From assembly GCA_030627205.1 (NCBI GenBank), contig DAOUSN010000005.1:1-64000 (forward strand): a stretch of 64,000 nt of DNA, read 5' to 3'. The notes below the pieces were generated by a model. It was given only the letters and a program-made list of their open reading frames with translations. It made no database searches and was not told where the DNA came from. The position numbers and the translations under genes are program-made. Origin of the DNA: Methylococcaceae bacterium. Lineage in GTDB: Bacteria; Pseudomonadota; Gammaproteobacteria; Methylococcales; Methylomonadaceae. This document shows, in pieces, positions 57,792 to 61,489 of the stretch (position 1 is the stretch's first letter; each line of letters begins with the position of its first letter).

Positions 57792-58223
57792 ATGACCGAG
57801 TCTAAAACTGTTGAAACCCCTTTTAGTTTTACACCTTATGATAAAAAAGAAGGTGAAGAATATATGAATGATGAGCAGCAAGCACATTTTGATAAAATTC
57901 TTAATAACTGGAAAAATGAATTAAGAGCAGAGGTTGATCGTACCGTACATCACATGCAAGATGATGCCTCTAATTTTCCAGACCCTAATGATAGAGCAAC
58001 ACAAGAATCTGAATTTAGTTTAGAGCTAAGAACACGCGACCGAGAACGAAAACTCATAAAAAAAATTGATGACGCATTACGATTAATAGAATTAGATGAT
58101 TATGGGTATTGCGATTCTTGTGGTATTGATATTGGTGTACGTCGCCTTGAAGCTAGACCGACAGCGACATTATGTATAGACTGTAAAACCTTAGATGAAA
58201 TACGTGAAAAGCAAATGGGATAA
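57792..58223 (+). CDS. dksA: RNA polymerase-binding transcription factor DksA
   Basis: A protein of 143 aa that enters the RNA polymerase secondary channel and works with ppGpp. The coiled-coil tip region contains [16 protein letters not shown], with the functional acidic residues, and the C-terminal zinc finger is CDSCG...CIDC. Length is near that of E. coli DksA (151 aa). A gluQ relic follows directly, preserving the ancestral dksA-gluQ order. Confidence 0.96.
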
Positions 58224-58243
58224 CTCTATCTCCTCTTAATCCT

Positions 58244-58331
58244 CTGGTTTATCAAGGGAGATTCGCGCCCTCACCCACAGGTAATCTGAATTTAGGCTCA
58301 CTTTATACTGCCGTTACCATCTGTATAATCT
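58244..58331 (+). pseudogene. gluQ: Relic of glutamyl-Q tRNA(Asp) synthetase (gluQ)
   Basis: From about 58244 one frame reads LVYQGRFAPSPTGNLNLG, then SLYTAV, before a stop at 58331. This is the N-terminus of GluQRS, which starts with YIGRFAPSPSG and the HIGH-like HFGSL. The normal protein is about 300 aa; nothing beyond the first 22 residues can be recognised downstream. Its place right after dksA matches the E. coli dksA-gluQ pair. The His of the HIGH-like motif is replaced by Asn. The gene is dead. Confidence 0.8.
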
Positions 58332-58431
58332 AGCATCTAATTGTGGAGATTTCATTTTGGAATGTAATGTTAATTAACCTAATCACATAAGTAAAGTGAT
58401 AGTCTTTATTAAATAATTAAAGGAGTTAAAC

Positions 58432-59553
58432 ATGAATGAATGGTTTTTTTCTTATGAAAATAATATAACAGGCCCTCATGATATTAATTATGCGAAGGCT
58501 TTTGTTAGAGAGCATCCAGGAGCTTATTGTTGGAAAGAAGGTTGGATGGAATGGCAGCTAGTTTTTGAGGTTACCGAAATTCGGCGAATGAAAAAAGATG
58601 GGGTTACGCCATTTCCACCACCGCCAGCAGCTATGATTTCGCCTAAACCAACAAGTTTACCTCATAACCATCCATCATCAATTGCAACCACCGTCGCTAA
58701 TAATTCAGCCTTAGTACAACAAACTAACAGCTCAATAGGATTTGGCGGGGATGATTATACAGACGGCATAGATTATAAAATTTATGGAACTGAAACCCAA
58801 TTTATAGAAATTGAATTAGACCCAGAAGAAAGTGCAGTAGCTGAAGCTGGGGCAATGATGTACAAAACCGCTAACGTAGCAATGGAAACCATTTTTGGTG
58901 ATGGTTCTAGCAATGATAGTAAACAAGGATTCATGGGGCGTTTATTGGGGGCAGGGAAACGATTATTAACCAATGAAAGTTTATTTACCACCGTTTTCAC
59001 TCAAAATGGGGATGGTAAAGGCAAAGTTGCTTTTGGCGCGCCATTTCCTGGGACAATTCTCGCCCTAAATTTAAAAGATTATGACGGTAAATTAATTTGT
59101 CAAAAAGACAGTTTTTTAGCGGCAGCAAAAGGCGTACAAATTGGGATTCATTTTCAGCGTAAAATTTTAACAGGATTATTTGGCGGTGAAGGTTTTATTA
59201 TGCAAAAGCTTGAAGGAACAGGTTGGGTATTTATTCACATGGGAGGAACGCTACATAAAATTGAATTAGCCGCTGGAGAAACCCTCCATGTAGACACGGG
59301 GTGTTTAGGCGCATTAACCCAAACAGTTGATTATGATATTCAACAAGCAGGTGGAGTTAAAACCATGTTATTTGGAGGGGAAGGGGTATTTTTTGCCAAA
59401 CTAACTGGTCCGGGAACTGTATGGTTACAAAGCCTACCTTTTTCAAGACTAGCAGGACGTATGTTATCTGCTGCACCTCAGAAAGGCGGCAGTCAAGGGG
59501 AGGGATCTATTTTAGGCGGGCTAGGTAATCTTTTAGATGGGGATAATTTTTAG
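58432..59553 (+). CDS. GYF_2 (DUF4339) - AIM24 family fusion protein
   Basis: A protein of 373 aa. Residues 1-50 (WFFSYENNITGPHD...GWMEWQLV) are a GYF_2/DUF4339 domain, often a tag or adaptor. A Pro/Asn/Ser-rich linker follows (about 60-105). Residues 115-350 are an AIM24/TIGR00266 domain (AVAEAGAMMYKT, GFMGRLLGAGKRLLTNESLF, GTILALNL, and the glycine-rich FGGEGF and FGGEGVFF repeats). Function is unknown. AAAGGAG precedes the ATG. Confidence 0.85.
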   Translation: MNEWFFSYENNITGPHDINYAKAFVREHPGAYCWKEGWMEWQLVFEVTEIRRMKKDGVTPFPPPPAAMISPKPTSLPHNHPSSIATTVANNSALVQQTNSSIGFGGDDYTDGIDYKIYGTETQFIEIELDPEESAVAEAGAMMYKTANVAMETIFGDGSSNDSKQGFMGRLLGAGKRLLTNESLFTTVFTQNGDGKGKVAFGAPFPGTILALNLKDYDGKLICQKDSFLAAAKGVQIGIHFQRKILTGLFGGEGFIMQKLEGTGWVFIHMGGTLHKIELAAGETLHVDTGCLGALTQTVDYDIQQAGGVKTMLFGGEGVFFAKLTGPGTVWLQSLPFSRLAGRMLSAAPQKGGSQGEGSILGGLGNLLDGDNF

Positions 59554-59822: not shown

Positions 59823-60020
59823 ATGTCTATTGCATATAGAAAAAATACATCTTCTTTTATGATAAGAACAGAAGATAAAATTCCACTGTTAAAAACATCA
59901 TTTACGTTTGATTTAGAAAAAATGAAAAAGGCTGTTAATGCACCTGTTCATATACCTCCAAGAAACTTAACAAGAGAAGAGCTACGCGCATGGATGATAA
60001 GCAAGGCAACAAAGAAATAA
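59823..60020 (+). CDS. Small protein, antitoxin-like, upstream partner of overlapping pair
   Basis: A protein of 65 aa starting ATGTCTATTGC after a GAGGTG Shine-Dalgarno. It is basic, with a C-terminal PPRNLTREELRAWMISKA segment that could be a helix. No known DNA-binding motif is evident. Its end overlaps the next gene by 31 nt. Size, order (small gene first), overlap and inverted repeats upstream are typical of a type II toxin-antitoxin operon; this is inference, not homology. Confidence 0.55.
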   Translation: MSIAYRKNTSSFMIRTEDKIPLLKTSFTFDLEKMKKAVNAPVHIPPRNLTREELRAWMISKATKK

Positions 60021-60385
60021 TTATAGGTTATGGTGAAATATTCCTTAACAAATTCAATAATTTTCCTATCAAAGATCAAGATAAAATATTAGATTTTGCC
60101 GAGCATATAGAAAACAATGGCTTTAATTCTCTACCTGGAAGAAACAAGCCATCTCATTATGTAAGCACTAATGACTCAAATTTCTTGGAAAAAGTAAAGT
60201 ACGCTCAAAAATATAATCTCCATCATTACCATATCGGAATACCTAGTTATGATGTAACAAATAAATATGGCGATTGGACATCCGAATGGATAATACATTA
60301 TCAACACCTAGGTAATAAAGTATATATTGTTGAATTAGATGATCATCCTCCATTTGCTTTGCCTCCTAAAAAATATTTCAAGTAA
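59990..60385 (+). CDS. Unassigned protein, possible toxin of the overlapping pair
   Basis: A protein of 131 aa. FLNKFNNFPIKDQDKILDF opens it, then HHYHIGIPSYD and TSEWIIHYQH, and it ends VELDDHPPFALPPKKYF. The His-rich core and small alpha/beta layout recall RelE/YafO-like RNase toxins, but I cannot assign a family. It starts 31 nt inside the preceding small gene. It ends 18 nt before the convergent pqqB stop. Confidence 0.6.
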   Translation: MDDKQGNKEIIIGYGEIFLNKFNNFPIKDQDKILDFAEHIENNGFNSLPGRNKPSHYVSTNDSNFLEKVKYAQKYNLHHYHIGIPSYDVTNKYGDWTSEWIIHYQHLGNKVYIVELDDHPPFALPPKKYFK

Positions 60386-60403: not shown

Positions 60404-61315
60404 TTATAAATCAATTTCTAAGCCATCATAAGAAACTTCAATATTATTTTCACTAAGAATTTTACGTTCTTTTGAATCATCATCTAAGATTGGATTAGTA
60501 TTATTAATATGAATTAATATTTTACGTGTATTTTCAATCCTATTTAATACTTCAATCATGCCGCCTACTCCTGATTGTGGTAAATGTCCAATTTCTCGCG
60601 CTCGTTTTGGACTAATATTTTGTGTACACATCTCATCATCTGTCCAAAATGTTCCATCTATCATTATGCAATCAACTGCCTGCATTGCTTCCATAACATG
60701 GGGTTCTATTTCACCTAATCCAGGTGAATAAAATACTTTTTTTCCTGTTGATATTTGTTCAATAATAACTCCAATATTATCGCCTTTATGAGGGTCATGG
60801 CGATGAGGTGAATATGGTGGAGCTTTACTTTTTAATGCTTGAGTATAAAAACGTAAGTCGTTAATAAGCGGAACAGTAAACCCACTTCCATCAGTAGGGA
60901 TGCTATGATGATTAACCGTACAGTAATCCTCTAACATTTTAAACACTGGAAATCCCGTGGTTAAATCATCTTTTACCATGTCAGTGCAATAAACATCTAA
61001 TGGCTTACCTTCACGTAACATTAACATCCCGGTCGTATGGTCAATTTGACTATCAATCAGCATAATTGCCTTAATACCAGTATCCCGCACGCCCTCTTTA
61101 GGCTGAATAGCAGGAAAAGATTCTAATTGGGTAAGAATATCAGGTGAGGTATTAAAAAGTAACCAGTTACGATTATCAGTACTAACAGCAATAGATGATT
61201 GCGTCCGTGCTGATCCATTCATTTGTTGATAACGTAAACGATGGCAATTATGACAGTTACAATTCCATTGTGGAAAACCACCGCCTGCTCCAGAACCTAA
61301 AACATGTATTTTCAT
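60404..61315 (-). CDS. pqqB: Pyrroloquinoline quinone biosynthesis protein PqqB
   Basis: A metallo-beta-lactamase-fold protein of 303 aa in PQQ cofactor synthesis. The start MKIHVLGSGAGGGFPQWNC and NCHNCHRLR are diagnostic, and DSQIDHTTGMLMLREG and DGTFWTDDEM are conserved. PqqB is needed for full PQQ production and is thought to hydroxylate the PqqA-derived Tyr. pqqA lies upstream beyond a terminator; pqqC, pqqD and pqqE are not in the window. Confidence 0.96.
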   Translation of the reverse strand: MKIHVLGSGAGGGFPQWNCNCHNCHRLRYQQMNGSARTQSSIAVSTDNRNWLLFNTSPDILTQLESFPAIQPKEGVRDTGIKAIMLIDSQIDHTTGMLMLREGKPLDVYCTDMVKDDLTTGFPVFKMLEDYCTVNHHSIPTDGSGFTVPLINDLRFYTQALKSKAPPYSPHRHDPHKGDNIGVIIEQISTGKKVFYSPGLGEIEPHVMEAMQAVDCIMIDGTFWTDDEMCTQNISPKRAREIGHLPQSGVGGMIEVLNRIENTRKILIHINNTNPILDDDSKERKILSENNIEVSYDGLEIDL

Positions 61316-61414: not shown

Positions 61415-61489
61415 TTAACGGTTATAAATATACATAGTTACTTCAAAACCAAAACGTAAATCGGTATAAGCTGGTGTTTCCCATTTCAT
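61415..61489 (-). CDS. pqqA: PQQ precursor peptide PqqA
   Basis: A 24-codon gene beginning MKWETPAYTDLRFG and ending EVTMYIYNR. Glu16 and Tyr20 are in the E-x-x-x-Y spacing that PqqE cross-links to build PQQ. It matches Klebsiella and other short PqqA peptides. GGAG lies 9 nt before the ATG. A good promoter lies 61 nt upstream and a terminator 21 nt downstream. It was found by direct translation. Confidence 0.95.
   Translation of the reverse strand: MKWETPAYTDLRFGFEVTMYIYNR

Follow-up and report, generated by a model that had tools for sequence, protein, structure and literature searches.

The enzyme GluQRS glutamylates Q34 of tRNA-Asp. A dksA-gluQ-rs operon has been described in Shigella flexneri and in more than 40 gammaproteobacterial species (PMC3542578), and a survey of proteobacterial genomes has linked the absence of gluQ to low GC content and small genomes (PMC11332805). 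Here we analysed the region behind dksA in a stretch of 64,000 nucleotides, the whole of which we refer to as the window (Table 1). As in the described operon, the N-terminus of gluQ lies immediately 3' of dksA, but unlike there, it is confined to about 25 codons and a stop, and is non-functional. The reading that we consider by far the most likely, with a probability of about 0.92, is that the locus is a dead gluQ, an ordinary pseudogene arising from gene decay, in a gammaproteobacterium related to Methylobacter. We refer to the genome as that of a methane oxidiser because of the kinship of the AIM24-like protein encoded next to the remnant, whose relatives belong to Methylococcaceae and Methylobacter.

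Table 1 Features of the dksA-gluQ region, in window positions
Feature	Positions	Strand	Basis
dksA, intact, 143 codons	57792..58223	+	TIGR02420 over cut-off, NF008045, PF21157, PF01258
ATG within dksA, where gluQ starts in G001, with 13 further codons up to a TAA, out of frame with the remnant	58195..58239	+	compared with G001 MKSVKNKWGDF...RGRFAPS
gluQ (GluQRS) remnant; about 25 codons still recognisable (58247-58318), Asn for the His of the HIGH motif	58244..58330	+	tblastn and TIGR03838 matches
TAG stop closing the remnant frame	58331..58333	+	
AT-rich spacer	58334..58431		not significantly similar to gluQ or to the G005 sequence upstream of the AIM24-like gene
AIM24/TIGR00266-family gene, intact, now directly downstream	58432..59553	+	PF01987, TIGR00266

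The frame behind dksA matches the N-terminus of GluQRS

The reading frame 3' of dksA (frame 2) translates as VYQGRFAPSPTGNLNLGSLYTAVTICII and ends at the stop at 58331-58333; between 58244 and 58330 it reads LVYQGRFAPSPTGNLNLGSLYTAVTICII, directly before the TAG, and the part at 58247-58315, VYQGRFAPSPTGNLNLGSLYTAV, aligns with the N-terminal end of GluQRS (tRNA glutamyl-Q(34) synthetase). Two GluQ proteins from congeners, both of which score above the TIGR03838 cut-off of 276.7 bits as GluQRS, were compared with the window by tblastn. The first (L029) matched at 72% over 36 aa (58208-58315, E 7e-11), the 5' part of this match overlapping or abutting the end of dksA, which is read in a different frame, and the independent evidence lying at about 58247-58315, and the second (L005) matched at 83% over 23 aa (E 1e-7). 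Searches of the whole genome recovered the remnant both with the GluQ protein of congener G005 (E 9e-10) and with TIGR03838 itself (E 6e-6; 26.5 bits across the first 23 of 272 profile positions). The match to GluQRS is far beyond chance, and the initial annotation, which had read the frame after dksA as the N-terminus of this enzyme followed by a stop, is borne out by the tblastn matches, the profile and the TAG.

The same annotation had proposed that gene order and remnant agree with a dksA-gluQ arrangement, which the congeners support. In four of the five (G001, G002, G003 and G005), an intact gluQ of about 300 codons lies directly 3' of dksA, overlapping or abutting the dksA stop, and in the fifth, G004, gluQ begins at the contig edge and is cut off there. 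The flanks of the four share no other gene with the window, the dksA-gluQ pair being kept while its neighbours move, and the ancestral order is thus seen in otherwise differing surroundings. Contig C49 of G004 was considered as a second gluQ relic and rejected, the end of the contig being the start of gltX. The gluQ of G005 (L038:5900-5960) has no ATG, GTG or TTG between the upstream stop and GRFAPS, only codons of the ATA, ATC and CTC type, and may use a rare start codon.

Decay of the remnant

The remnant combines two features of a pseudogene: its significant homology to GluQRS, at the profile and protein E values given above, goes together with a disrupted frame, the stop following after 41 open codons, and it occupies the locus at which the orthologue stands in the four relatives. 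Functional members of GluQRS are full-length proteins above the TIGR03838 cut-off and carry the HIGH-type His; the remnant has neither the length and score nor the residue, and reads LNLG where LHxG is expected, a position at which His is present in all intact relatives aligned (about 30). No ATG, GTG or TTG precedes GRFAPS in the remnant frame, and the ATG at 58195, where gluQ starts in G001, is conserved inside dksA but is out of frame with the remnant and reaches a TAA.

These changes bear on whether an intact gluQ might in fact follow dksA, with the contig falsely joining two places. The source assembly (2.27 Mb, 92.9% complete) is a draft of 83 contigs, and no origin was identified for the spacer at 58334-58431, both of which would fit a local error of this kind; we nevertheless consider it very unlikely, since the remnant itself carries a His to Asn change that is absent from every intact relative aligned, its reading frame is without the G001 start, the site is internal to a contig of 85.9 kb, and the assembly holds no further piece of gluQ anywhere.

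Beyond 58316, no significant similarity to gluQ was found in any frame against four congeners (best shuffle p 0.28). A frame-shifted continuation after this point (YNLASNCGDFILECNV), which is suggestive by eye, was rejected on the same grounds. The remainder of the gene is thus gone, as had been proposed, with nothing recognisable of the other 270 or so codons. For the dead gluQ that we favour, the body of the gene would have been removed by a deletion or rearrangement that broke it after about codon 25, and small mutations, by which the frame and start were lost and the His of the HIGH motif became Asn, would have accumulated before or after this event, the remnant being too short to date or order them.

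The region downstream of the remnant

In G001, G003 and G005, the AIM24-like gene is found on other contigs or at other positions, not beside gluQ, and since it sits elsewhere in these genomes, it was probably brought next to the truncated gluQ by a rearrangement or deletion. A derivation of the spacer from the region upstream of this gene was considered and rejected, G005 being similar only beside the ribosome-binding site, and a search for a terminator 3' of dksA found none. One could also speculate that gluQ is dead but that its remnant has been retained as a promoter of the AIM24-like gene, given that a sigma-70-like site matching at 10/12 positions (TTTATA-16-TATAAT, 58302-58329) straddles the end of the remnant. 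However, the sequence is AT-rich, two such sites were found against 1.4 expected in shuffles, and G005 has no similar upstream sequence, which makes a retained promoter function unlikely.

The AIM24-like gene of congener G003 (L141, G003:C30:4421-5551) has one in-frame TAG within the match. Further along the window, two small genes of 65 and 131 aa, which overlap and have no Pfam match (59823-60385), have a layout like that of a toxin-antitoxin or similar pair. They are followed by a pqqB-like gene (60404-61315) with no other pqq genes adjacent on the pqqB side; upstream of it, on the minus strand, lies a short reading frame (61415-61489), the peptide of which we take to resemble the PQQ precursor PqqA.

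Other gluQ copies and queuosine synthesis

A search of the whole genome with the TIGR03838 profile and the G005 protein revealed no second gluQ in the 92.9%-complete assembly; the remaining profile matches, a GltX-like frame of 469 aa (267.7 bits) and a GlnS-like frame of 553 aa, are both under the 276.7-bit cut-off. While this completeness leaves room for a functional copy in the unassembled 7% or so, with the remnant as the copy left behind when gluQ moved or was duplicated, and one relative (G221) does have two copies, gluQ is single-copy in nearly all relatives that possess it and no fragment was found elsewhere in the assembly, so that we regard such a copy as highly improbable. The genes tgt (385 aa), queA (351 aa), queG (365 aa) and queC (224 aa) are all open and over their cut-offs, and the tRNA-Asp of the genome has the anticodon GTC. 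Since the queuosine genes are intact and the assembly contains no gluQ, we infer that queuosine is present without glutamyl-queuosine on tRNA-Asp, the modification that the initial annotation had expected to disappear with GluQRS unless another copy exists. The best reading of this gene content is that the cell would still make queuosine but would be unable to glutamylate it on tRNA-Asp(GUC), which would carry Q34 without the glutamyl group, while tRNA-Asn, tRNA-His and tRNA-Tyr would keep Q.

With 33.6% GC in the window, a genome of 2.27 Mb and no gluQ, the organism resembles the low-GC or small proteobacterial genomes in which the gene is absent (PMC11332805). That survey recorded presence or absence in proteobacteria, whereas here the remnant is still visible and the queuosine pathway is kept. 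Also unlike the reported pattern, large relatives in the family (4.7-4.8 Mb) are without gluQ, and small genome size is thus not required for its loss. GAC makes up 15.5% of the Asp codons in the window, within the 11.8-18.4% of gluQ-bearing congeners (small samples), and no shift between GAC and GAT is therefore visible in the window.

Loss of gluQ across the family

The loss of gluQ in the window is not unique and adds one more case to a kind of decay already known; a literature search on the loss of gluQ in methanotrophs turned up nothing specific. Among the 206 family genomes that are at least 80% complete, 29 have no full-length gluQ match (nine of them identified by elimination, comparing the gluQ and tgt lists), not all of which are losses: at least two, G004 and G041, are contig-edge cases and were rejected, the gene being cut by contig ends. 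Full-length tgt is found in 27 of the 29. In genus g20, gluQ is absent from all 13 sampled genomes, and the four inspected (L132, L133, L136 and L137) have an aminotransferase-like gene 3' of dksA, retain tgt, and gave only chance-level matches when a trace of gluQ was sought behind dksA. Genus g12, like the window, has decayed gluQ pieces behind dksA and has retained tgt: 5' pieces are present in G080 (L130, E 2e-8) and in the single-contig G085 (L134, E 3e-12), and a possible internal piece in G105 (L135, E 7e-6). These remnants are at different stages of decay, and they differ from that of the window in surviving pieces and downstream genes, which indicates that the events were probably separate. 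Counted by genus membership rather than on a tree, this suggests at least three separate losses in the family (the window, g12 and g20).

In the window, a tRNA hypermodification step has clearly been lost while the pathway leading up to it is intact. We lean towards the view that this methanotroph family has repeatedly been able to dispense with GluQRS, at least three of its lineages having lost the enzyme but kept queuosine synthesis, among small genomes as well as large ones. The family losses provide related pairs with Q, with and without GluQ on tRNA-Asp, and thereby a test of the proposed association of gluQ with GC content and GAC/GAT usage (PMC11332805). If the repeated dispensability is true, the family would constitute a natural comparison set for the role of the glutamyl group on Q34.
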